Shown piece after piece: positions 4,808-59,894 of a stretch of DNA of 64,000 nt. Source of the stretch: Brevibacillus laterosporus. GTDB taxonomy: Bacteria; Bacillota; Bacilli; Brevibacillales; Brevibacillaceae. Position numbers and translations under genes: made by a program. Numbering within the stretch: the stretch's first letter is position 1; the number at the start of each line of letters is the position of its first letter. Under the pieces are notes generated by a model. That model did not search any database, was not told the origin of the DNA, and worked only from the letters and a program-made list of their open reading frames with translations. Location: the NCBI GenBank assembly GCA_007833815.1, contig CP033464.1, forward strand, positions 5,377,501 through 5,441,500, read 5' to 3'.

Positions 4808-6808
4808 TTACTCCTTGACCTTAAACTTTTCCACAGCACGCTGCATTCCCTCTGCCATCTGAGTCAAAGCAGTTGCGGACGATGTAATCTCTTCCATAGA
4901 AGCAAGTTGTTCCTCAGATGCCGCAGTGACACCCTGCGAAGATGCTGCCATGCCCTGCGCAATTTGAGCGATTTCGTGCATCGAAGCAGAGACCTCTTCT
5001 GCACTTGCCGACATTTGTTCAGTGATGGCAGATACGTCATGAATTTGCTCGACAATATGTTGTGTAGATGCTTGAATATTAGTAAAAGCTTCTCTGGCTT
5101 CTGACGTGACGATAATACCCTTTTTGACATCTTCATAAACTTTACTTTTCATGACCTCTGAAGCATTCTGGGTCAAGCTCGTTACTCGGATGATAATTTC
5201 TTGGATACGATCCGCCGTTTGTTTTGATTGATCTGCTAGCTTTCTTACCTCATTAGCAACAACAGCAAAGCCTCTTCCCTGCTCTCCTGCTCGCGCTGCT
5301 TCAATCGCCGCATTTAATGATAGGAGATTCGTCTGTTCCGCGATGCCAATGATGGCTGTACTCATTTCTGATATTTGTCCACTATACTTTTGCAATTGTT
5401 CCATGATGCCAGCCGATTCTTCTACAGATTGACGAATCGCTTCCATTTGTTCGGTCACCAGTACCACTTTCTGATTACCATTTTGTACGTCCTCTGTGGT
5501 TTTGGCTGACGAATCTACAATGCCATTAGCTGACTCAGCAATTTTATAAATCCCAGTTGACATTTCTTCCATTGTGCGGGCACTCTCAGATGTAGCAATC
5601 GCTTGTGTTTTTGATCCGTTCGCTGATTCCTCTACCAGCTCTGTGACGTATTCTACCGCTTTAGCATTTTGCATTGTACTAGCTGTCATTTGTTGACTGG
5701 ATGCAGCTAATTGATTGGACGTTTCCATCACCTCTGTGACGATGCCCTTAAGTGAGTCTACCATTTCATTATAGTTGGTGGCTAACTGACCAATTTCATC
5801 CTCCAGGTTGATATTCACTTTTTCATCTAAATAGCCCTCACTTACCCGCTTTGCAGAGGCTGCCAGTAGTGCTAACGGTTTTGTAATTTTACTAGTCCAA
5901 ATAAACACCAAGATAGAAGCTGCTACAAGAAAGACTACTAAAATGAACCCTGTTTGGTTCAGAATTGGGGCAGAAGCTTTCACGTATTCCTCACTGGGAA
6001 GCACACCAACGATCTTCCAACCCGTTAAAGAATTTGTCTCAAATAATGCTTTTCGTTTCTCTCCGTTCTCAGAAGAATCATAGCTGACCCATCCCTTATC
6101 AATCGATTGCATGGTGTCATAGTGCTCACCTTCTACCTGTTTTCCTATGGGATGTATGGGATGCGACATGAGTTTGTTGGTACGATCTAACAAATACGCA
6201 TATCCTTCTGAACCAAATTTTACACCTTTGACTAGCTCGTGAATTGTATTAAGGCTTAAACTAATACTTAACGCACCTTGTCCGTCTGGAAGCGCTTTTC
6301 CGATATTCAATATATAATGATTCGTCGTCATTGAAACGACTGGATCATTTATTGCGATTGTGCTTGGGTCTTGTATGACTTGTTTATACCAATCTCGCGT
6401 GCGTGGATCGTACTCTTGTTTTCCAGGATCGGGCGCCTTCATCCAAGCACCATTTTGATTCCCGACTGTTACAATTTCAATTTCGGGATGTTGCTTCGCA
6501 AAGTCCTCCATTATTTTTCGGAGTTCAGGGCTTTGTTCGTCGATTTGACGAGAGGTAATTTGTTCAACCAGTGTATTGAGATTAGCAATCTCCAATTGGA
6601 TAATCTGGTCAATCGCTTGATTCAATAAGCTAACGCTAGAATCAGCTGCTCCTTCTAATTTTTGTTCTAACTGCCACTTGGAAATGTAAAAAGAGGAATA
6701 ACCAATTAGAACTCCTTGTAAAAGTAACACAGCAATGATGAGAAACATCAGCTTACTCCGTAATGTCTTTCGATTAAATATTCTGCTTCTTATGTCTAGC
6801 CATTTCAT
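4808..6808 (-). CDS. methyl-accepting chemotaxis protein with Cache sensor
   Basis: This 666-residue receptor senses small molecules outside the cell and signals to CheA/CheW. One membrane span near residues 18-38 is followed by a double-Cache-type sensor (about 40-280, with [10 protein letters not shown] and [11 protein letters not shown]), a second span near 283-305, a HAMP domain to about 358 and the signalling domain to the end. The conserved hairpin tip is unmistakable near residue 505 ([19 protein letters not shown]). Gln/Glu-rich heptads around it could be methylation sites. The start follows a GGGAGG site. A lone cheW lies at 34655, but no other chemotaxis genes are near, so this is a scattered receptor. 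The ligand cannot be read from sequence. Confidence 0.95.
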
Positions 6809-10539: not shown

Positions 10540-10770
10540 TGATTTTCACTCCTTATTCATAATAATACTTTAATTTACATATTCTCCCTTCTTTATTAAA
10601 ATGTCAATAATTTTTCGAATATTTAATTTTAAATTAATGTTATTCATTTTTCCTATTCACCTGATTCGTAGTATCCTCTTCTAAAAACTAGTTTTCTTCC
10701 CCAATCTTTACGCACTAAAGTCTTCGTTTTCCTAATGTAAGAAAAAATATTATTTACACCGATTTACGAA

Positions 10771-10813
10771 AAAAACATCCCACTCCACCTTTGACGGTAA
10801 AACAGGATGTTTC
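10771..10813 (-). terminator. intrinsic terminator
   Basis: AAACATCC pairs with GGATGTTT just past the stop of the small DUF4367-like gene; A- and T-runs on both sides allow either direction. Confidence 0.6.
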
Positions 10814-26247: not shown

Positions 26248-29200
26248 CTACTTTATTACAGTCTCTTGTATCGTAGGAAAAAAATCTACTTCAATAGCAT
26301 ACTCTATCATACCTCTTACAAGTTTTTCCGTCGGTCTTGGGCAAACAACGGATGTTTTCTGTAAAAATTCCTGTGTGAGTGCACAATCAGGTATTGAAAT
26401 AGACATTCCTTCACTAGCTTCTAAGGAAGGTAAGATCAACTCTAATGCTTGTTGTTTCTCCTCAGAAAGATCACCCTGATAAAGAGTTTGGATATACTCT
26501 TGCGCATGAATAAGAGAAATCGGATATCCCGCCTTTTGTACATTGCGGATAAAGTCCTCCCAAGTAATTTGGTACGGATTGCAAATATGCAGAGTCTCAC
26601 CAATCGTTTCTTGTTGACATGCCAGCTGCACAATAGCTTTGCTTCCATAATCAATTGGCGTTACATCCATATAACCAGGCATAGAAGGGGCCACTCGTAA
26701 AAGGAAGATTGCTTTAAGTAAGCGATAAAATGCATTTTCATGAATGTTATATTGAAACTTACCCGTCACAGAATGACCAACCAAATTACCTACTCGGTAA
26801 ATAGTAGCATCCAATCCCTCTTCGATAGCTTTCCTAACACTTTTCTCTGATAGAAACTTACTTTCAACATAGACATTCTCTATCGTTTGACCACGATCAA
26901 AATCCGTTTCATAAAACATAAATTCTTCTGGATCGTGAATAGAGTGACCAACCACACTTAACGTGGAGATATAATGAAAACGTGCTTTCATTTTTTTCGA
27001 TAACTGTAACAACTCATTTGTTGAGTCAAGATTTACCTTATGAAAATATTCACGATCTCCATAATGTCTTACCTCTCCCCCGCAATGTATAACCGAATTA
27101 AATTTACCTACAAGACTATCCCATATCAAAGAATCTACTCCTAGATTCTTGCTACCTAAGTCACCTTCTATTGTGAAAACTCTCCCCTTCATCTGAGACA
27201 GAATTCCTTTTCCAAAATAGAAAACCATTTTTTCAGCCAGTTTTTTATCAATGGAGGTTTGTTCTGTTTTACGTACGAGACAATAGATAGAGACAGAAGG
27301 TATCTGAAGCAATTCCTTCAAAATATACGCTCCTAAGAAACCAGTAGCACCTGTAAGAAATACTCCCTTAGGAATATTCATTGTAATGTTCGTCAAAGGC
27401 TTTTCTCTTTTCCTTTGCTGCACACGGTTTACAATAGGTTGGGTAGCTTTCTGGGGGAGCTGCTCTGTAATTTGAGTTTCTTCTTTCTTTTCTTCTAAAT
27501 ATTGTGCAAGCTTTGCTACTGTACGGTATTTGAAAAAATCCTGAATACGAATCATTGGATATTTTGGCTTCAGTTGTACGAGAACAGGCATGATTTTCAA
27601 GGAGTGACCACCCAACTCAAAAAAATCATCTTCTAATCCGACTGCCTCCACATCTAAAACCTGTTCCCATATGTTAGCCATCTCTATTTGCAATTCCGTC
27701 TCAGGCTTAGTAAAGGTTCTTTCTTTTGTTATCAAATGTGGTGAGTTTTGTATCAAACTTTTCCGATCGACTTTGCCATTTGGTGTTAAAGGAAGCTCGC
27801 TAAGGTGTTTGTAATGTCTTGGCAGCATATATTCTGGAAGCATTCCAGATAAGTAGGTATTCAATTCGCTTACTTGGATTTCTTCTTTACTAGTAGTTGT
27901 GTAATAAGAGACGAGAACTTTCTCATCTATAGAGTCTACTGCCAAAACAACGGATTGATGTATCAATGGATGTTGTAAAAGAGTTTCCTCTATTTCACCC
28001 AATTCTACACGGTAACCCCTTATTTTAATCTGATCATCTCTTCTTCCCACAAATTCAATATTCCCGTCTGGCAACCATCTCGCTAAATCACCTGTTCGAT
28101 ATAATTTGTCTGCATATTCACGAGAGAATGGGTTAGAAATAAATACTTCTTCATTTTTCTGCTCTTGATTCCAATACCCTGGGGAAAGTCCGACGCTCTC
28201 AATGTAAATCTCACCAATCGCACCAATTGGGCACAGATTCTTTTGAGAATGTAGGATATAAATCTTCGTATTAGCCAGAGGTTTTCCAATCGGGACATTC
28301 TTTTGTTCAGGATGAATCAGGTTAATTGGATAAAAAGTTGCAGAGACAGTAGCTTCCGTAGGACCGTACTCATTTACAATCAACGTATGCTGACCAAATC
28401 TATTTTGCCATGCTCGAACAGATTCGGCAGGTAATGCTTCCCCCCCGACCATCATCATGCGCAACGTTTTGATCATTTCCGCTTCTATATTATTCATGGA
28501 AGCAATCAGATTATGAAAAAATACGACCGGCAAATCGGTGATTGTGGCCTTCACTTTTTGAACTGCTTGAGCATATGCACTTACTGAGTACCTCTCTTCT
28601 TCGGATAAAATGTGTAATCTAGCTCCATGTAACAAAGCCGAAAAAATTTCAGATACAGAGGTGTCAAAGCTAAAAGAAGCAAACTGTACAAAATTATCCT
28701 CATGACTCACCTGAAACTGATCTTTCCTCCACTGAATCAGGTTAAGAACCCCCCGATGACGCAGTAATGTGCCCTTTGGTTTTCCTGTCGAGCCAGATGT
28801 ATAAATGACATAAGCTATATCCTCTGGGGTGCTTACAATATCCACATTATTTGTTTGCGAATGCTTATATACATCATCCATCAGAATGAGGACACCTGTA
28901 TAAAGAGATAAACCCGTCTTTTGAGAATCTCTCGTAATCATGTATGACGTTTTACTATCTTCTAAGATATATTGAATTCGATCCTTTGGATAACTCGTAT
29001 CAATCGGAACATAGGCTCCTCCTGCTTTTAAGATACCTAGCATAGCAATGATGCTCTCTATGCTTCTATCTAATAATATGGCCACTTTATCATTAGATCT
29101 CATTCCTTTGAGACGCAGATAATGAGCAACCTGATTGGAAGCCTGATTTACTTCTTCATAAGTAAGAGAATGCTCACCCATCGATATAGCTTCTTTACTA

Positions 29201-32200
29201 GGGTACTTGCTTGCTTGTTCATAAAACCGTTCTTGAATAGTTTGGTTGGTAGGAAACATTGCTTTTGTATGATTTACTTCTTGATACAAGTGTTTCTCTT
29301 CGTCTGTCAATAAATCTAGTGCATGTGGTGCCAACGATCGCTGGTCTATGAAAGCTTCTAAAATTTTTTCTAAGCTACTAGCAAATCGAGAGACAGTATC
29401 TTGTGTAAATAAATCTCTGTTGTATTCAAACGTAACATGTAATTGTTGCTTTTTCTCATTCACAGACAAGGAAAGATCAAATTTACTTGTATTTATATCG
29501 CAAGGAAGCACTTCTAATTGATAGTCACCCTGCTGTAGGTTCAGATTATTTTCATAGCTAAACATTGTTGAAAAAATAGGTGTTTGATTTTCAGTTCTGT
29601 CTGGGTTTATAAGCTCTATTAACTTATCAAAAGGATATGCTTGATGATTATAGGCTGTTAAGCAAGTCTCTTTTACCTTTTGTATAAGCTGTTGCAAGGT
29701 TTCCATACATTGAAGATCCATCCGAATAGCCAATGTATTTACAAAGAAACCTTGAATATGCTCCAAAGATTCATGTATTCGCCCAGCGATAGGTGTTCCT
29801 ACAATAATATCTTCTTGTCCAGAAAAATGGTTTAGAAGTTTGAAATAAGCAGCTAATAATAGCATATTCATCGAAACATTTTCATCTCTACTTACTTCTT
29901 TTAACTGCTGCGTCAGCTTTTTGGTAAGGGGATAACATATGGTGTCCCCTTCAAAAGTCTGTTCTTTAGGTCGAGTGAAATCCATAGGTAGCTGTAGAAC
30001 AGGCAAAGGCCCTTTTAGCTGTTCTAGCCAATATGCTTTTTCTACTTCCCAGTAACCCTTTTGGAGCTGTTTTTCTTGCCATTCTGCATAATCAATATAA
30101 CGGTGATGAATAGGCTGTAGCATGGGAGTAATATCTTGTTCACGTGCATTATAAACCTCCATACATTCTTGAAGGAGTTGTTGTATACTCCATTCATCCG
30201 TGATGAGATGATGAAAGTTTAAATAGAGATAGCTTACCTCATCAGTAAGGGAATATAACGCAGTCCGAAACAAAGGTCCATTGACCAAATCAAAAGGCTC
30301 TTTTACATCATTTCTTACCTCTTCTTCAATCAAGGCTATCTGCTTTTCTTCGCGTAAATGGGATAAATCCTTATAAAAAAATGATAGCTCGCTTGTGTTG
30401 CGAATGATCTGTCTAGGTTCTCCTTGTAATTCTACAAATATGGTACGCAAAATTTCATGTCGTTCCATCAATATTTCAAAAGCTTGTCTAAATAAATCGG
30501 GATCAAGACTTGGTCTGACTTTCACCTGTAGCGGAACATGGTAAACACTATGGCCAGAATTCCATTTATCTAAAAACCATAACCGTTTCTGAGCATTCGA
30601 TAATGTATAATGCTCTTGTTCGGTAACGTGCGGCAGTAAATCTTTATCACTGTTTGATTGATGGGTAGACTCTGTATCTGCTTGCTTGTCGATGAATGCT
30701 GCCAAACGTTCAACCGTGCGATACTGGAACATATCCTTTAGCTCAATTTTAGCATTCAGTTGCTTATGTACTTGATTGATTACTTTAATGCCTATTAATG
30801 AATGGCCTCCTAGTGCAAAAAAATCATCATCAATACTTATTTTTGTTTCTTCCATTTGGAGCACCTTTGCCCAGATTGTTACTACATCTCTCTCAGTAGA
30901 CGTACTAGGTGAAATACATGTCTTGTTCTCCATTGTTAAAAGAGATTTGGCTTGTTGAGCTAACGCTTTACGATCTACTTTTCCACTAGGTGAGAGAGGC
31001 ATTGATAACAGAGAATAAAAATGATCTGGTACCATATAAACCGGTAGCTTTTGATTCAGGTAGTTTACTAATTCCTTCGTTGGTATGTCCTCAGTAGAAT
31101 CAGCAGATATATAAAAGGCTACTATTCTCGTACGATCACTATCGTCTTTATGGACAACAACGACAGAATCCTTTACTTTGGGGTGTTGCAGTAGAATGGT
31201 TTCAATTTCATCTAGCTCCATTCGATAGCCTCTAATTTTTACCTGATGATCCACACGTCCAATAAATTCCAAATTACCATCTTGTAAAATTCGCCCAACA
31301 TCCCCTGTACGATAAAATCTTTTCTCTGATTGATTAGGAAGAGCAAGTGAAATAAAAGATTTCTCTGTCTGTTGCACTTGATTTAAATAACCCTTTGCTA
31401 ATCCTACTCCCCCAATTATCAATTCTCCCGGAACGTTTATAGGGCACAGCATACCATGTTTATTCAAGACAAATATTTCACTGTTTGCTAGAGGCTTTCC
31501 TATTGGAATGTGCTGTTTCGTTTCTGGTACCATTTCAGTGATATCATAGATGGTTTTACATACAGTAGCTTCTGTAGGCCCGTACGCATTAGCAATCGGA
31601 ATTTTCGTCCCCATTTTGCGTTGCCACATACGTACTGGTTCTGGAGACAATGTTTCACCACCTACAAAAATTACTTTTAGTGATTGTAACTGACGTAAAG
31701 TCTCCTGAGGCAATTGTGTTAGTTGTTTAAAATAAATAACAGGAAGAAGGCAGTAATTCGCTTTGTTGTTTTTTACGGTAAGGACAAAATTTTCTGGTGA
31801 TGTTCGATCTAGGTCTGAAAGCAGATAAAGCCTTCCCCCACACAATAAGCTAGAGAAAATTTCCCACACGGAGGCATCAAAAATGAAGGAAGCAAATTGT
31901 AAAAATACATCTTTTTCCGTAAATCTGTACTTGTCTTTTAAAGAATAAACTAAGTTTACAACCCCAGTGTGGGACAATAATACTCCTTTTGGATTACCTG
32001 TTGATCCTGAGGTATAGATCACGTAAGCAAGATCTTCAGCAGTATGAGACGATTCGACTGAATAAAGAGGGAGATGCTGAGGAAACTCTTCCCAAAATAA
32101 ACAGCCTCCAAAATCAGCAGGAAGTTTATCCTCCCATTTTTTCCTTGTGATCAGATGATTTGCTCCACTATCCTTGACCATATATTGAATGCGTTCAGCA

Positions 32201-33882
32201 GGAAAATCTGGGTCAATAGGGACGTAAGCTCCACCTGCTTTTAAGATTCCTATCATGGCGACAATGGTATCAATATGACGATCCATCATTAATGCAACCA
32301 GTTCATTTTTGCTGAGGTTATGTTGAAGCAGATAATGTGCTACTTGATTTGTACGACTCTCCAATTGCTTATATGTAATAGCTTCCTCTCCCATTGTGAT
32401 CGCGAGGCGTTCTGGATATTGAGCAGCTTGTTCATCTAGAAGCTGATCCAACGTCTTGGCCGCCGGATAATCCAGATTATTATGATTTATCTTTTTATAG
32501 ATCTCGTAATCCTGTTCAATAAGTAATGGCAATGTATGTAGAGATGCTTCAGCGTTTTGAATCAATGTTTCTAGCGTATGAATGTAGCGATGTAGAAGGT
32601 CCTTGATCGTTTCAAAGGCATATAAATCCGTATTAAAGTCTATTTCTATCGTATATTCCCTCTCTTGGCTACGTACTACTCTCCATACGACATCAAAAAG
32701 AGTCGTACGTTTAAATTGGTAGGTTACTTCTGCCTCAAGTCCCTCAAGTTCAATTGTAGGAAGACCTACCATGTTGAATACAGTAGAGATTAGAGGTCTA
32801 TCTCCCTTACTGGTGGAATTAGTATTTTCCATCAGATATTCACTTCGATAATTTTGGTGTTGCAATGCCTCTCTAACACTTATATCTACCTGTTGAAGTA
32901 ATTGATTGCATGTTTTGATGTTAGTAAAAGAGAGACGTATAGGAAGAGTATTAATAAAGTAACCAAAAATCTCTTCAAATCCTTTTCGAGGTCTTGTATT
33001 TGCAGGCATACCTACCACGATATCTTCTTCCGTTGTCATTTGATGAAATAGGATAAAATAGGCCGTTAACATAACACGATATACACTTACCTGATTATCT
33101 TCAGAGAATTTCTCAACCCTTTTCATCAAGGTAGCGTCTATTATGCTACTTAGGTAATCTCCTTGATAGGACAGGTTGTTAGCGGGAACACTATCGTAAG
33201 GGAAATTCACGTAAGGAAGAGAGCCTTCCATCTTATTTTTCCAGTATATGTTAGATTCCTGATAGGATAATGCTCCTATGTTACTCGCTTGTTGAATCTT
33301 AGTAACTACGTTATCTTCATTTTCCTTGTCAGAATCAATTTCTTCATTCCTTTTTAAAGATGTATAAAAAGTAGATAATTCTCGCAAAAAGATACCAGAG
33401 CTCCAGCCATCATAAATAATATGATGAAAAACAATATAAAACAGATATTCTTGGTTACTTTTTTTGATTAAATAAGGGCGAAATAATGGTCCTTCTTTTA
33501 ACTCAAACGGTTCAATTCGTAAAAGCTCTAATGAGTCCTGTATAATACTTTCCTTTTCTAACAAAGGGATAGATGTAAAATCATACGGAGTTATTGGGAC
33601 TTCTACTTGAGGTAAAATAATTTTTTGCGGATTCTCTTCATCTCGACAAACAAAAATCATTCGCAGAGCTGGATGACGTTGAACAATTCTATCTAATGCT
33701 TTTTGCAATACGAAAAGAGATACTTCCCCTTTCATTTTAATACCAAGAGGTTCATTGCATAGCGCTGGATTCATTTGATGTGCTACCCAAAGAGATTTTT
33801 CTACGCTTGTCAGCTCAATAGCTTGTTCATAGGTTGACTTTTTTTCCCGTTTTTCTTGCACCAGACTCGTTTTTGTAGACAT
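26248..33882 (-). CDS. dimodular NRPS with terminal reductase (C-A-T-C-A-T-R)
   Basis: A 2544-residue assembly-line enzyme. Domains: C1 (about 25-460, HHIIYDGWS near 151); A1 (480-1000, YTSGSTGNPKG near 625, FDASVWEIF); T1 (LGGHSL near 1025); C2 (1085-1530, motif altered to HHLITDEW near 1226); A2 (1545-2045, YTSGSTGKPKG, FDTSVSEIF); T2 (LGGHSL near 2091); reductase (2170-2540, GATGFLG near 2179, YVESK near 2338). No epimerase or thioesterase. By family knowledge the reductase uses NADPH to release the peptide as an aldehyde. My hand-aligned specificity codes are D-A-W-L-F-G-A-V-C-K (hydrophobic or aromatic) and D-T-S-D-M-G-E-V-S-K (acidic pocket, perhaps a basic residue). The leading C domain suggests N-acylation or feeding by another module. 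Start: ATG at 33882 behind AGGAGGGAC. No PPTase or exporter adjoins. Confidence 0.93.
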   Translation of the reverse strand: MSTKTSLVQEKREKKSTYEQAIELTSVEKSLWVAHQMNPALCNEPLGIKMKGEVSLFVLQKALDRIVQRHPALRMIFVCRDEENPQKIILPQVEVPITPYDFTSIPLLEKESIIQDSLELLRIEPFELKEGPLFRPYLIKKSNQEYLFYIVFHHIIYDGWSSGIFLRELSTFYTSLKRNEEIDSDKENEDNVVTKIQQASNIGALSYQESNIYWKNKMEGSLPYVNFPYDSVPANNLSYQGDYLSSIIDATLMKRVEKFSEDNQVSVYRVMLTAYFILFHQMTTEEDIVVGMPANTRPRKGFEEIFGYFINTLPIRLSFTNIKTCNQLLQQVDISVREALQHQNYRSEYLMENTNSTSKGDRPLISTVFNMVGLPTIELEGLEAEVTYQFKRTTLFDVVWRVVRSQEREYTIEIDFNTDLYAFETIKDLLHRYIHTLETLIQNAEASLHTLPLLIEQDYEIYKKINHNNLDYPAAKTLDQLLDEQAAQYPERLAITMGEEAITYKQLESRTNQVAHYLLQHNLSKNELVALMMDRHIDTIVAMIGILKAGGAYVPIDPDFPAERIQYMVKDSGANHLITRKKWEDKLPADFGGCLFWEEFPQHLPLYSVESSHTAEDLAYVIYTSGSTGNPKGVLLSHTGVVNLVYSLKDKYRFTEKDVFLQFASFIFDASVWEIFSSLLCGGRLYLLSDLDRTSPENFVLTVKNNKANYCLLPVIYFKQLTQLPQETLRQLQSLKVIFVGGETLSPEPVRMWQRKMGTKIPIANAYGPTEATVCKTIYDITEMVPETKQHIPIGKPLANSEIFVLNKHGMLCPINVPGELIIGGVGLAKGYLNQVQQTEKSFISLALPNQSEKRFYRTGDVGRILQDGNLEFIGRVDHQVKIRGYRMELDEIETILLQHPKVKDSVVVVHKDDSDRTRIVAFYISADSTEDIPTKELVNYLNQKLPVYMVPDHFYSLLSMPLSPSGKVDRKALAQQAKSLLTMENKTCISPSTSTERDVVTIWAKVLQMEETKISIDDDFFALGGHSLIGIKVINQVHKQLNAKIELKDMFQYRTVERLAAFIDKQADTESTHQSNSDKDLLPHVTEQEHYTLSNAQKRLWFLDKWNSGHSVYHVPLQVKVRPSLDPDLFRQAFEILMERHEILRTIFVELQGEPRQIIRNTSELSFFYKDLSHLREEKQIALIEEEVRNDVKEPFDLVNGPLFRTALYSLTDEVSYLYLNFHHLITDEWSIQQLLQECMEVYNAREQDITPMLQPIHHRYIDYAEWQEKQLQKGYWEVEKAYWLEQLKGPLPVLQLPMDFTRPKEQTFEGDTICYPLTKKLTQQLKEVSRDENVSMNMLLLAAYFKLLNHFSGQEDIIVGTPIAGRIHESLEHIQGFFVNTLAIRMDLQCMETLQQLIQKVKETCLTAYNHQAYPFDKLIELINPDRTENQTPIFSTMFSYENNLNLQQGDYQLEVLPCDINTSKFDLSLSVNEKKQQLHVTFEYNRDLFTQDTVSRFASSLEKILEAFIDQRSLAPHALDLLTDEEKHLYQEVNHTKAMFPTNQTIQERFYEQASKYPSKEAISMGEHSLTYEEVNQASNQVAHYLRLKGMRSNDKVAILLDRSIESIIAMLGILKAGGAYVPIDTSYPKDRIQYILEDSKTSYMITRDSQKTGLSLYTGVLILMDDVYKHSQTNNVDIVSTPEDIAYVIYTSGSTGKPKGTLLRHRGVLNLIQWRKDQFQVSHEDNFVQFASFSFDTSVSEIFSALLHGARLHILSEEERYSVSAYAQAVQKVKATITDLPVVFFHNLIASMNNIEAEMIKTLRMMMVGGEALPAESVRAWQNRFGQHTLIVNEYGPTEATVSATFYPINLIHPEQKNVPIGKPLANTKIYILHSQKNLCPIGAIGEIYIESVGLSPGYWNQEQKNEEVFISNPFSREYADKLYRTGDLARWLPDGNIEFVGRRDDQIKIRGYRVELGEIEETLLQHPLIHQSVVLAVDSIDEKVLVSYYTTTSKEEIQVSELNTYLSGMLPEYMLPRHYKHLSELPLTPNGKVDRKSLIQNSPHLITKERTFTKPETELQIEMANIWEQVLDVEAVGLEDDFFELGGHSLKIMPVLVQLKPKYPMIRIQDFFKYRTVAKLAQYLEEKKEETQITEQLPQKATQPIVNRVQQRKREKPLTNITMNIPKGVFLTGATGFLGAYILKELLQIPSVSIYCLVRKTEQTSIDKKLAEKMVFYFGKGILSQMKGRVFTIEGDLGSKNLGVDSLIWDSLVGKFNSVIHCGGEVRHYGDREYFHKVNLDSTNELLQLSKKMKARFHYISTLSVVGHSIHDPEEFMFYETDFDRGQTIENVYVESKFLSEKSVRKAIEEGLDATIYRVGNLVGHSVTGKFQYNIHENAFYRLLKAIFLLRVAPSMPGYMDVTPIDYGSKAIVQLACQQETIGETLHICNPYQITWEDFIRNVQKAGYPISLIHAQEYIQTLYQGDLSEEKQQALELILPSLEASEGMSISIPDCALTQEFLQKTSVVCPRPTEKLVRGMIEYAIEVDFFPTIQETVIK

Positions 33883-34654
33883 TCTAATAGTCCCTCCTAA
33901 ATCAATTAAACGATTCACTCATGATTGTTTGTTCGGGGTTTTCATAATCTGTGTTTTCAAACAAACTACATGCTAGATTTTCTCTAGTAACATACCTCCC
34001 CTCTTTTAAGTCAGAATAAAAATAACACTTTTAACTTTTTAATAACCTTACAAATTAATTATACATATTTTGTAAAAGAAAAAAATGGTATTCAATTATT
34101 TTTTATTAACTTTTATTTACATAATAAAAAGTCCGTTACAGATAAGTAAGAATAAAGGCTATACGATAGGAAAACGTAATTGTTATGTACGATGATTTCG
34201 TTAGATTCCGATTTAAGTATGGTCACGCTATGACATGAAATAATCTAACAATAACGAAGAAATAATGGGATGAATCAGGTACAAAAAGATCACTTATCAT
34301 TGGGTGGTCCTTTTTGTTTTTAGTTCAGTAGTACTTTATTGAAAGCAAGGAAAAGCTTTCGACTCCCGCATGTATAATATTCATTCATTTCCTTTCACTA
34401 TTGTTTACAATAATATCAATTACAATATGATATTGGAAATTATGGTTTTCCTTATATTTCCACAATCCAAAAAGGAAATATTAATGTTTGAAATTGATCA
34501 GGCAATAGCAAAAATGTGGACGGAACCTAGTCAACTTTCGGATGATTTAATTAACTAAACCTAACGATTCCTCTTTCCAGTTGAGATGATATAATAAAGA
34601 GAGACGTACATAGCAAACGTACTTGGAAAAGAAAAATAGAGAGGGGGAAGCCTC
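33883..34654. other. AT-rich intergenic region upstream of NRPS and cheW
   Basis: About 770 bases. It must hold the NRPS promoter; a TATAAT on the minus strand near 34058 is a candidate -10 without a clear -35. A hairpin at about 34283-34316 (AAAAAGATCAC..GTGGTCCTTTTT) looks like a plus-strand terminator. A short frame at 34484-34558 (MFEIDQAIAKMWTEPS...) has a weak AAGGAA site; I do not trust it. A -10 TATAAT near 34591 probably serves cheW. Confidence 0.45.
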
Positions 34655-55057: not shown

Positions 55058-55897
55058 TTAAATTGGAATGGACTCAAGCATTTCACCTTGTTCATTCCAT
55101 TTCACTGCCCGATACTTGGCATCATGGTAAAAAGTGAACCACGCTTGTTCTGCTATCATTTCCTTCATCCATTTTTCCTTAGCATAGATAGATGTCATCG
55201 GATAATCATCGTAGGCCATGACCCACAGTGGGTTCTGATGTGCATGTGTAGGCATAATATCCGCCATATGGCAAGCCTTCTCACCCTTGCTTTCAAACAA
55301 GATGATAGCGTGTCCATCACTGTGCCCACCTGTATGAACCATTGTTATACCAGGAACAATCTCTTTTTGTTCCCCATACGTACAAACCTGCTTTTCGATG
55401 GGCCGCCAATTGTCTTCCCAATACGTGTTACGCGATCGGATATTAGGAGATCTTAATTCATTCCATTCAATTTCGTTGATATAAATAATGGCATTAGGAA
55501 AAGTAGAATGCAAACTACCATCTTCTGCCACACTAACTAATCCATTTGCGTGATCATAATGCATGTGAGTCATCAGCACCACATCAATATCTTCAAAATG
55601 TAGCCCAACTGCTTGAAGAGATTCATGTAATTGTGATTCTTCAACAAGACCAAAGTTACGTTTTTGTTTATCATTTAAACGGTTTGTGCCCATACCCGAT
55701 TCAATCAGCATATTTTTTCCATGAACTTGTACAAGAATAGGGTCTGAGCGAAGGGGAATTTGATTGAGCTCATTGGAAGGGTAGCGTTTGCTCCACAAGG
55801 CTTTTGGAACAACTCCAAACATCGCTCCTCCGTCTAACTGGGTCATTCCACCCCTCATCCACGTTAGCTTACAATCACCAATCTGCAATGTATTCAT
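55058..55897 (-). CDS. ytnP: MBL-fold hydrolase, YtnP-like lactonase
   Basis: The 279-residue product starts at 55897 behind AGGAGGAG. Its opening (GGMTQLDGGAMFGVVPKALW) is typical of YtnP, a quorum-quenching lactonase in Bacillus. Zinc ligands are in LMTHMHYDHANGL (HxHxDH), a later HTGGHSDGH and MADIMPTHAH. No signal peptide. By family it may open homoserine-lactone rings of other bacteria's signals; that activity is not shown here. Confidence 0.87.
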   Translation of the reverse strand: MNTLQIGDCKLTWMRGGMTQLDGGAMFGVVPKALWSKRYPSNELNQIPLRSDPILVQVHGKNMLIESGMGTNRLNDKQKRNFGLVEESQLHESLQAVGLHFEDIDVVLMTHMHYDHANGLVSVAEDGSLHSTFPNAIIYINEIEWNELRSPNIRSRNTYWEDNWRPIEKQVCTYGEQKEIVPGITMVHTGGHSDGHAIILFESKGEKACHMADIMPTHAHQNPLWVMAYDDYPMTSIYAKEKWMKEMIAEQAWFTFYHDAKYRAVKWNEQGEMLESIPI

Positions 55898-56082
55898 GCT
55901 ACTCCTCCTTAAGCCAATATCACACAAGAAACTCTTATCTCCTACGTTACACCAAGACAGCTTCTTGGTAAAGAAAACTTCCTTGGTTTGGATTGTTTTG
56001 TGATAAACATAAAAAATTTGTAGGTAAGAAAAATCTGATAAAACCAAGCTTGGAGCGCCGTCAAAATCTGATTCCTATCTGT

Positions 56083-57848: not shown

Positions 57849-57884
57849 AAAAAATCTGACTCTCATGTAAGAGAATCAGACTTT
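57849..57884 (-). terminator. intrinsic terminator after HExxH gene
   Basis: AGTCTGATTCTC pairs with GAGAGTCAGATTTT on the minus strand and is followed by a T-run, just past the stop of the 57903 gene. Confidence 0.8.
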
Positions 57885-57902: not shown

Positions 57903-59414
57903 CTAATGCGGCTCTAAAACATACGAATATGGTACATGTAAAAAAGAAAGTAAACGATTTTGCCCCTCTTCCTCCTGAACTCCTTGAAGAATTTCGCTTA
58001 TTTCTTTTTGAACAGACTCGTAACGAATCTGGTGTTGCTGTTCTGATTCCGCAGTCTCTTCAAGCTCTCTTATCCAATCTGCTACTTGCTTTGCGACAGG
58101 TAAAAGAGCCTGCTGAATTTTTGTATAAATAGTTGATAATTGGTGATTATTTTGCTCTAGGAGTTGATTAGAGCACTGTTCCAAATAGCCACGAATCTCC
58201 GCTAGACGTGACATTAATTCTCTCCATTTCCATAGTTGCTTATGCTGTTTACGCTGTTTTGAATCCAGTGGTGGGAACGGATCACTGGAAAATAGAGATT
58301 GCACGTCTGTCCACGGGTTTTTCTGAAGTGATTCCTCCAGCTTTTTCATGCAATATGCATGAGCAGGGAGCAACTCTACCGTTTCTCTAAAGGCAGGTAA
58401 TGTATTTCGTGCATAGCTTTTAACTCCCCAAGCACTATGAGCTTGTAGAGCTTTCACAAAGGAAAAACAATGCTTATGTAATAATTCCAGTTCCCTTTCC
58501 TCTAATTCATGATTAGACAAAATCGTTTGTTTGACAGCGTTATCGGGAATGTGAAAGTTCCCCTCTCCCAATTGCATGCCTCTCTTCACATAGGTCCGTA
58601 ATGTTTCTCCCGTTAAAGAAGGCTCGCCATTTCCTTGATAAAGCTCAATACGGAAGGCAGCAAATTCTTCGAACCCTTGCGTATTTCCGTATCCATCGTC
58701 AATGACATGCAAGTCCGTCTGTACTTCCATTAGCTCACTTAATACCTGTTCTTCTAATGCATAGATACATCCCTCGATATGAGTCCAATAGCTTCTACAT
58801 TCAGCCTCTGATCCCAGTACCCTTTGATACACATCATGAAACAAGAGAATATGAGCAATCTCATGAAAGTAATTCTGAAATGGAAATTTAAGGTTTTCCC
58901 CACGGAGGTAGGAGCCTGCATTCTGATAAATTTTCCCGTGTTCAGGACGAAACAGAGTAGGTAATGTTGAATCTACGTCTAAAAATAGCTCAATGCCCGC
59001 GTTATAACTATTTGCCCAAACGGCTAGGTAGGTAGGACTCAGCAAGAGTGCAATAGAATGGTTGGTAATTTGTACAGGTAGATTAAAATGTAGACCATTC
59101 GTCTCTTCCTGCAAAGACAACCATGTCATGCCGACTGCTAAAGCCTGGTACAGCGCAAACTCACCTTGTGCAACCGAATGTCGTGCATACAGCTGTAGTT
59201 GTCTAAGGCAACTCGTCACATTATCTTGTTCATATGTATATTTTTGTTGAAATTGTTCAAGCCCTTCTACAAAATCTCCATGTTCGATTGTTAAAAACAC
59301 ATTAATTCCATCTACCCATAGATCTGAACCTATTTTAGACTCCAACCATTGATCGGTATCCTGTGCTAGCTTACGCAGTTCTTCGTAGCGTTGTATCATG
59401 TGAAAGGAATTCAT
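57903..59414 (-). CDS. HExxH-motif protein, candidate peptide-modifying enzyme
   Basis: A 503-residue soluble protein with HEIAH at residues 184-188 (FPFQNYFHEIAHILLFHDVY) and several later acidic residues (EEQVLSELMEVQTDL) that could complete a metal site. The C-terminal third (about 390-490) is coiled-coil-like (LRQ/EELEETAESEQQHQIR-type). No signal peptide or span. HExxH proteins next to short peptides include both zinc proteases and the HEXXH-motif enzymes that hydroxylate RiPP precursors. The two 31-residue peptide genes directly upstream on the same strand suggest they are its substrates. Which chemistry applies cannot be told. The ribosome site (GGATAAG) is weak. Confidence 0.75.
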   Translation of the reverse strand: MNSFHMIQRYEELRKLAQDTDQWLESKIGSDLWVDGINVFLTIEHGDFVEGLEQFQQKYTYEQDNVTSCLRQLQLYARHSVAQGEFALYQALAVGMTWLSLQEETNGLHFNLPVQITNHSIALLLSPTYLAVWANSYNAGIELFLDVDSTLPTLFRPEHGKIYQNAGSYLRGENLKFPFQNYFHEIAHILLFHDVYQRVLGSEAECRSYWTHIEGCIYALEEQVLSELMEVQTDLHVIDDGYGNTQGFEEFAAFRIELYQGNGEPSLTGETLRTYVKRGMQLGEGNFHIPDNAVKQTILSNHELEERELELLHKHCFSFVKALQAHSAWGVKSYARNTLPAFRETVELLPAHAYCMKKLEESLQKNPWTDVQSLFSSDPFPPLDSKQRKQHKQLWKWRELMSRLAEIRGYLEQCSNQLLEQNNHQLSTIYTKIQQALLPVAKQVADWIRELEETAESEQQHQIRYESVQKEISEILQGVQEEEGQNRLLSFLHVPYSYVLEPH

Positions 59415-59515
59415 CTTATCTTATCCTATCCCTTCTTCATTTTGATCATAAATAAAGAAAACTTGGCAATTGCCAAGCATAAGAGCTACTAGGGCCTTAG
59501 TAGCTTATACGATAG

Positions 59516-59549
59516 TAAAACAAGAGCACGCGTCATACGTGCCCTTGTC
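59516..59549 (-). terminator. terminator between peptide genes and HExxH gene
   Basis: ACAAGGGCACG pairs with CGTGCTCTTGT and is followed by TTTTAC on the minus strand. Two more small hairpins follow (59480-59508 and CTTGGCAATTGCCAAG at 59463-59478). Partial readthrough would give much peptide mRNA and little enzyme mRNA, common in precursor/enzyme operons. Confidence 0.75.
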
Positions 59550-59556
59550 TAAAACA

Positions 59557-59652
59557 TTAAAGTAAACAAACAGTGGTGATAATTGGATGGACAATACCTT
59601 TCATGTCTGTTACCTTTTCATTATTGACAGTAACCTTTACAACTTTTTTCAT
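59557..59652 (-). CDS. 31-residue peptide B, putative precursor
   Basis: An ATG at 59652 follows AGAGGGGG. The product begins MKKVVKVTVNNEKVTDMK and ends ITTVCLL. It shares with peptide A the MKKVVKV start, the N-x-x-VT-D/E-MK centre and the VCL end, at equal length, so the two are duplicates. Pattern: conserved N-terminal leader-like part, variable middle (GIVHPII) and one Cys near the C terminus. No signal peptide. The function as a RiPP precursor or signal is inferred from length, duplication and the HExxH neighbour. Confidence 0.75.
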   Translation of the reverse strand: MKKVVKVTVNNEKVTDMKGIVHPIITTVCLL

Positions 59653-59712
59653 AGTAAAACCCCCTCTTTACGTTGAAAAGATGTTTTTTTCGCTGAAAAG
59701 ATGTACTTCAAA

Positions 59713-59808
59713 TTACAAACAAACGTCAACAACAACACGCCACATTAAAGCTTTCATTTCAGTTACATTTTTGTTATCTGAGAGCTCTACTTTCACTACT
59801 TTTTTCAT
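59713..59808 (-). CDS. 31-residue peptide A, putative precursor
   Basis: An ATG at 59808 lies 5 bases after AAAAGGAGGGAG, a very strong ribosome site. The product begins MKKVVKVELSDNKNVTEMK and ends VVVDVCL. A promoter (TTGAAA-17-CATAAT) and an inverted repeat lie directly upstream. It is the first gene of the group, 60 bases ahead of peptide B. The variable part is ALMWR then VVVDV, with one Trp, Arg and Asp that could be modification targets. Family unknown to me. Confidence 0.78.
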   Translation of the reverse strand: MKKVVKVELSDNKNVTEMKALMWRVVVDVCL

Positions 59809-59865: not shown

Positions 59866-59894
59866 ATTATGATAGATAGTTCTGAAAATTTCAA
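59866..59894 (-). promoter_or_regulatory. promoter of the peptide genes
   Basis: On the minus strand: TTGAAA, 17 bases, CATAAT, about 60 bases before the peptide A start. The DNA around it is very AT-rich. Confidence 0.6.

Follow-up and report, generated by a model that had tools for sequence, protein, structure and literature searches.

The analysed window, a stretch of 64,000 nucleotides from Brevibacillus laterosporus (contig CP033464.1, positions 5,377,501 to 5,441,500 of the forward strand), contains a small cassette composed of two peptide genes, here called pepA and pepB, a terminator-like hairpin, and a gene encoding a 503-residue protein with an HExxH motif. Relatives of this cassette occur in two bacterial families, in which the peptide genes and the HExxH gene are found together, the peptides share a conserved leader but differ in their cores, which are repeated in some of them, and the HExxH motif is invariant in all intact members. 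We propose, with a probability of roughly 0.45, that the peptides form a precursor family resembling those of ribosomally synthesized and post-translationally modified peptides (RiPPs) and that the HExxH protein is their dedicated maturation enzyme, which would read the leader and cut after a conserved lysine. The wider proposition, that this is a new class of ribosomal peptides with single-core and multi-core forms, matured by an unrecognised HExxH family with a fold of its own either through cleavage at lysine or through a new metal-dependent modification, appears slightly more probable than its opposite. A precursor accompanied by a dedicated enzyme is a known kind of system; the precursor and enzyme families themselves have no credible match in the libraries used, and the one open-access library consulted yielded no paper on either of them.

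The cassette and its distribution

The initial annotation of this DNA had described two adjacent 31-residue peptide genes with strong ribosome sites together with a gene for an HEIAH protein and had placed a terminator between the peptide genes and the latter; the coordinates and the minus strand were confirmed and the elements form one cassette:

59713-59808, minus strand: pepA, 31-residue precursor-like peptide with a good ribosome site, full sequence MKKVVKVELSDNKNVTEMKALMWRVVVDVCL (leader half MKKVVKVELSDNKNVTEMK, core half ALMWRVVVDVCL)
59557-59652, minus strand: pepB, 31-residue precursor-like peptide with a good ribosome site, full sequence MKKVVKVTVNNEKVTDMKGIVHPIITTVCLL (leader half MKKVVKVTVNNEKVTDMK, core half GIVHPIITTVCLL)
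59520-59548, minus strand: terminator-like hairpin with a short T-rich tail in the spacer between pepB and the HExxH gene, 12-bp stem, -17.6 kcal/mol
57903-59414, minus strand: gene of the HExxH protein, 503 residues, with HEIAH at residues 184-188

Full-length homologues of the HExxH protein were found in 13 of 40 Brevibacillaceae genomes, including 4 of 6 genomes of the window's own genus (87-100% identity, window genome counted) and 9 of 26 genomes of a second genus (58-59% identity), and at all 13 loci pepA and pepB lie upstream of the HExxH gene in the same order. The co-occurrence of peptides and HExxH gene that the initial annotation had proposed as a check was borne out: a leader-peptide profile gave matches in all 13 carriers and in none of the 27 genomes without an HExxH gene, thereby recovering 26 of 26 known pepA and pepB peptides and one orphan. 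A draw of 398 genomes from the phylum gave an HExxH homologue in the window genome alone. In a draw of 399 genomes from the class, 19 HExxH matches were reduced to 17 intact homologues, all in two families, by removal of a chance match (G481; E 0.008, 15 bits, internal stops) and a degenerate copy (G535), and the peptide profile returned the same 17 genome handles from a draw of 399 that is likely identical, judged from these handles. One further peptide match, G478, was due to chance, as its alignment is confined to the repeat part of the profile, and its coordinates and score fit a frame resembling a nitroreductase by eye; matches of this type (G438/G478 and G442, the latter with E 0.097) were left out of the peptide counts. 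The phylum and class searches for the HExxH protein scored at most three first-look candidates per genome and the class search for the peptide at most 14. In the order of Tumebacillus flagellatus, represented by 14 genomes, five genomes hold HExxH homologues at eight loci; judged from shared coordinates, the handles G437/G565, G448/G575, G449/G605, G450/G585 and G445/G535 were treated as one genome per pair, the last being counted as degenerate. Carriers include B. laterosporus, B. porteri, B. formosus, B. fortis and T. flagellatus, and carriage is patchy inside genera.

Among the 24 loci with an intact HExxH gene, 20 adjoin intact peptide genes and the remaining four adjoin remnants, that is, the enzyme is encoded beside its presumed precursor as is typical of RiPP systems. 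The genes flanking the cassette are unlike between the two Brevibacillus-family genera (L023 compared with L024, L025, and L029), and therefore it is the unit that is conserved and not the region. An origin from a mobile element was rejected: the HExxH protein has no match in plasmids or phages and no confirmed relative in viral contigs, and the DNA of the locus has no match in plasmids.

The terminator assignment of the initial annotation can be extended to the relatives. A hairpin with a T-rich tail, the tail being defined by a lenient criterion (5 of 9 T), separates the last peptide gene from the enzyme gene at all 19 loci in which the peptides come first (13 of 13 in the Brevibacillus family and 6 of 6 in the Tumebacillus order), and its energy ranges from -13.9 to -23.3 kcal/mol. 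The spacer between pepA and pepB, in contrast, has at 13 of 13 loci either no hairpin or one of at best -3.3 kcal/mol, with -2.1 kcal/mol in the window genome. In T. flagellatus C12 the peptide lies 3' of the enzyme and a strong hairpin (-21.5 kcal/mol) follows the peptide, which breaks the simple rule. As judged from the arrangement of the hairpins, the likely outcome is the production of much peptide and little enzyme.

Loss and duplication of the cassette were observed as well. In one case, G445, motif and peptide have been lost together: its HExxH homologue (L050 8995-10380), the tree sister of the intact T. flagellatus C12 row, lacks E185, H188, and a stretch before the motif with a 461-residue frame still open, and no leader peptide was found in this genome with the peptide profile. 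Four genomes of the window's genus carry a second HExxH paralogue, 39-42% identical (L042 7998-9697, L017, L018, and L019), which has kept HExxH while its upstream peptide gene appears decayed; the remnant in the window genome is open from GTG and lacks the usual start, and the other three are interrupted. Furthermore, the window genome contains an orphan intact peptide (MMKKVVKITVNNEKVAELKVMHHPIITSACKKL; C4:3472015-3472107, L068 1495-1596), whose gene, according to the alignment, joins the promoter region, ribosome site, and first codons of pepA to a pepB-type body, behind which lie the hairpin and the beginning of the HExxH coding sequence. We interpret this copy as the probable result of a recombination inside the shared leader codons.

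Precursor peptides and the HExxH protein

In an alignment of 24 precursors M1, K2, and K6 are invariant and K3, V4, V5, and K19 nearly so. At all seven intact Tumebacillus-order loci, one to four adjacent peptides combine an MKKVVK-type leader (with one MKKEIKK and one MKKMVK variant) with different cores: T. flagellatus cores end in ...NPYVWMFDNDCPW, ...DPYIRYLGDCY, ...TPDVFYGGTSRCW and ...IPDICRASCL, G448, G449, and G450 have ...KWIG... and ...HITI... cores plus one long precursor each, and a second G450 locus has the core ...VIFNGSACF. Many cores carry a proline at a similar position. The equal length of 31 residues that the initial annotation had emphasised applies to the pair in the window but not to other genera, where the peptides have 29-36 or else 70 or 103 residues, and the C-terminal cysteine is common without being universal.

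The long precursors, found in three Tumebacillus-order genomes, contain three to six repeats of a unit of about 15 residues. The 103-residue precursor of G448, for which the ATG start was chosen by us, has six xGI units at a spacing of 15, 14, 15, 15, and 15 residues, each following [VAT]K, and the two 70-residue precursors have three xGI units each, 14-16 residues apart. The lysine in front of each repeat unit corresponds to K19, the near-invariant lysine closing the leader of the single-core peptides. In a shuffle test with 20,000 residue shuffles, none reproduced the six PxGI of the 103-residue precursor, one reached the three observed in G450, and 95 reached the two observed in G449.

The ratio of nonsynonymous to synonymous polymorphism (pN/pS) within genera, calculated from small counts and non-independent pairs, is 0.03-0.14 for both halves of pepA, indicating strong purifying selection, and 0.22-0.38 for the leader and 0.71-0.80 for the core of pepB. 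The distinction of a conserved leader from a variable core made in the initial annotation, a hallmark of RiPP precursors, is supported by these data for pepB and by the comparison between genera, but fails for pepA within a genus, where the core is conserved too. Together with the co-occurrence, the gene order kept despite different flanks, the diversity of the cores and their repetition in three Tumebacillus-order genomes, this upholds the RiPP-like layout noticed at the outset. No match to the peptides was obtained in Pfam, NCBIfam, PADLOC, or PHROGs.

The same four libraries gave only weak matches to the HExxH protein, below curated cut-offs where these exist (best: IFT46_B_C, E 0.0049, and LmuB from PADLOC, E 0.014), and no credible match was obtained among PDB sequences (best E 0.21 and 0.27). 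In a family alignment of 25 loci, H119, H184, E185, H188, E214, E227, and H326 are invariant in all 24 intact rows. A structure predicted from the 25 rows reached a predicted local distance difference test (pLDDT) score of 87.7 and a predicted template modelling score of 0.90; an earlier model from 17 less diverse rows was poor (pLDDT 56.7). The predicted model is mostly helical, three short strands precede the HExxH helix (179-192), and this helix is followed by a long helix (203-231) on which the invariant E214 and E227 are located, an order that in the model looks zincin-like. E214 lies 26 residues past H188; in all-helical gluzincins such as M2, M3, and M32 the glutamate ligand follows about 24-26 residues further on. 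A Foldseek search of the predicted model against PDB and BFVD gave no match at E up to 0.001.

The initial annotation had also pointed to the HExxH peptide hydroxylases of TIGR04267, and this link was not sustained. Relatives of TIGR04267 are present above cut-off in 7 of 250 genomes of the class, and none was found in the window genome (G000); two of these carriers, G002 and G575, also hold the peptide-HExxH cassette. R268, P269, and H275 of the RP...[LFY]H motif are invariant in six of six aligned relatives, one of the seven loci having been omitted as the frame chosen for it lacks the motif, and we take the histidine of this downstream motif to be the third ligand. No counterpart of RP...H is present in the 24 intact rows of the cassette family, where the first invariant histidine after HExxH is H326, 138 residues downstream. 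TIGR04267 is absent from the nine NCBIfam families matched by any of the 25 family members at E up to 1, and hhalign aligned the two families with a probability of 10.3 (E 0.003) over 33 columns around HExxH only, so that membership of the cassette enzyme in TIGR04267 was rejected on the basis of these comparisons.

A candidate maturation route and its alternatives

In the route that we favour, a promoter 5' of pepA would drive an abundant peptide mRNA, of which the hairpin after the last peptide gene would pass only a part on to the enzyme gene, leaving substrate in excess over enzyme. The N-terminal residues, about 19 in number (MKKVVK...V..[M/V]K), would be the leader recognised by the HExxH protein and the C-terminal 12 or so the core. 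The HExxH protein would most likely be a peptidase of the zinc type, cleaving behind the conserved lysine at the end of the leader and, in multi-core forms, behind the equivalent lysine before each repeat, freeing peptides of about 12-15 residues, which would then be exported and may act as antimicrobial or signal. The HExxH protein is favoured as the cutting enzyme because a multi-core precursor has to be cut in each of its linkers and no further protease gene was noticed in the cassette. Further sequence elements in the window relate to the proposed transcription:

59866-59894, minus strand: sigma-A-like promoter candidate 5' of pepA, 10 of 12 consensus bases
59484-59505, minus strand: second terminator-like hairpin in the spacer between pepB and the HExxH gene, from a consensus scan
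59461-59478, minus strand: third terminator-like hairpin in the same spacer, from the consensus scan
57851-57884, minus strand: terminator-like hairpin 3' of the HExxH gene, from the consensus scan

The candidate promoter region is kept within the genus and in the orphan peptide copy according to the alignment, and promoter-like sites as such are not in excess in the region (9 compared with 5.9 +/- 2.9 expected from shuffles). The separate terminator consensus scan omits the hairpin at 59520-59548 and reports the two others within the spacer, which is longer in the window genome as seen in the alignment.

Several observations weigh against this route. The enzyme matches no peptidase family and no solved fold in the libraries and the Foldseek search, cleavage at lysine is deduced from the position of this residue, and simple cleavage leaves the conserved cysteine of many cores unexplained. 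The core of pepA is within a genus about as conserved as its leader, and the loci viewed do not have an exporter in common. In T. flagellatus C7 the two peptide genes are themselves separated by a hairpin of -12.8 kcal/mol. Since four second-paralogue loci keep HExxH beside peptide remnants, the enzyme may serve another purpose or function in trans. Moreover, the carriers are clustered in few clades of two families and do not represent 17 independent events, and of the 15 peptides known from Tumebacillus-order loci the peptide profile failed to detect 2, so that divergent peptides elsewhere could escape it.

The recurrent proline and the cysteine of the cores would be better accounted for if the HExxH protein were a tailoring enzyme, that is, an oxygenase of the iron/alpha-ketoglutarate type or a catalyst of another change of core proline, aspartate, histidine, or cysteine, which evolved apart from TIGR04267 and leaves leader removal to a housekeeping protease. 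HExxH proteins of RiPP clusters can be alpha-ketoglutarate-dependent hydroxylases, and one report describes the fold of such an enzyme as reminiscent of zincins (PMC12636437), because of which a similar reaction reached by convergence is conceivable; PesO hydroxylates proline, as stated in a second report (PMC13060819). Considering that the cassette family lacks both a match to TIGR04267 and the RP...H motif and that its hhalign hit is confined to the surroundings of HExxH, we judge tailoring to be unlikely. A toxic or regulatory role of the peptides as intracellular small proteins, with the HExxH protein as protective protease in a toxin-antitoxin-like or immunity arrangement and the N-terminus as part of a fold instead of a leader, would agree with the tight co-occurrence, the single co-loss, and the constraint over the whole length of pepA. 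Cores repeated every 14-16 residues and the wide variation of core and length fit a folded toxin poorly, PADLOC yielded a single weak match (LmuB), and the window genome carries an additional orphan copy of the pepB type, which together make this explanation very improbable.

The surroundings of the Tumebacillus-order loci suggest a signalling system, in which the peptides or fragments cut from them would leave the cell, return through Opp-type permeases and be detected intracellularly, with the HExxH protein either producing or destroying the signal. In G448, two BPD_transp_1 permease genes lie directly 3' of the HExxH gene and in the same orientation, and similar permease-like genes, judged from their first residues, lie downstream in G449 and, as the second permease only, in G450. 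The G448 locus and that of T. flagellatus C7 each have an RNPP_C regulator nearby; such genes are rare above cut-off (two in G437, one in G448, none in G000, G030, G449, or G450), and of the three in these six genomes two adjoin cassette loci. Each of the three is paired, however, with its own divergent pro-peptide gene (L043 4934-5077 with 5216-6145, L047 1498-1656 with 1806-2717, and L090 9595-10539 with 10671-10802), the pro-peptide having by eye a signal-sequence-like start and, near its end, an LPPQH or LPPCH motif that occurs twice in one of the three. Because these regulators have such pro-peptides of their own and form separate pairs by appearance, the MKKVVK peptides, in which no secretion signal is seen by eye, are probably not their ligands, and this assignment was dropped. 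With the absence of RNPP_C matches from the carriers G000 and G030, in which other RRNPP types were not searched, the signalling explanation is quite unlikely. The RNPP/pro-peptide pairs look like quorum systems that might control the peptide locus, by analogy with the streptococcal RiPPs made by radical S-adenosylmethionine (SAM) enzymes (RaS-RiPPs; PMC8092268), and a survey reports that B. laterosporus plasmids carry some RRNPP regulators (PMC10075063). As an observation in its own right, the three RNPP_C/LPP[QC]H pairs may constitute an undescribed family of quorum-sensing pheromones.

Neighbouring genes and relation to known peptide systems

In the window the cassette is flanked upstream by a gene for a BadF/BcrA-type ATPase/kinase and downstream by a gene of the MgtC family. 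In agreement with the initial annotation, which had seen no radical SAM enzyme, LanM, or YcaO, no standard RiPP enzyme was recognised by eye among the large open reading frames of the window, not all of which were scanned. The window also contains a single frame of 2556 residues (26248-33918), which by eye resembles a peptide synthetase of two modules that ends in a reductase-like domain, and a gene (55058-56047) scoring above the cut-off of the model for YtnP-family quorum-quenching lactonases (NF047919). Near the HExxH locus of G450, Pfam recognises consecutive genes for ABC transporter, MauE/DoxX, and thioredoxin-like proteins (L045 3236-6163), which may be a separate peptide export cluster, and in G449 a RloB-type protein and an AAA ATPase, both assigned by eye, are encoded between the HExxH gene and the permease-like genes (L044 10513-12368).

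Long precursors with one leader and several similar cores at regular spacing are known from cyanobactins and microviridins, and the long precursors of the cassette resemble them in this respect, whereas inspection of the cassette loci by eye revealed no enzyme of the YcaO, ATP-grasp, or subtilisin type and the repeat is of the type KxxxPIGI. The alpha-ketoglutarate-dependent HExxH enzymes of RiPP pathways (TIGR04267/IPR026337; PflC, PosC, PesO, and BpmH) likewise stand beside a short leader-core precursor; the cassette differs from them in lacking the family match and the RP...H motif, and by eye it has no MNIO, radical SAM, or other partner enzyme. Metalloproteases removing RiPP leaders include members of M1, M16, M50, M61, and M103 (PMC10885120), and there a metalloprotease is likewise tied to a precursor peptide; none of these families was detected in the 25 HExxH proteins, and the cassette encodes no enzyme besides the HExxH protein. 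The quorum-controlled RaS-RiPPs such as tryglysin share with two Tumebacillus-order loci a precursor locus beside an RRNPP-type regulator with its own pro-peptide (PMC8092268), but no radical SAM enzyme was seen at the cassette and no RNPP_C gene was found in the two Brevibacillus-family genomes searched.

With two peptides and one enzyme, from families without credible match among the models and PDB entries searched, the cassette is a very small peptide system. If the proposed reading is true, it could show how peptide maturation has come to employ HExxH folds outside TIGR04267, and if the enzyme performs new chemistry, the cassette would represent a new RiPP class.

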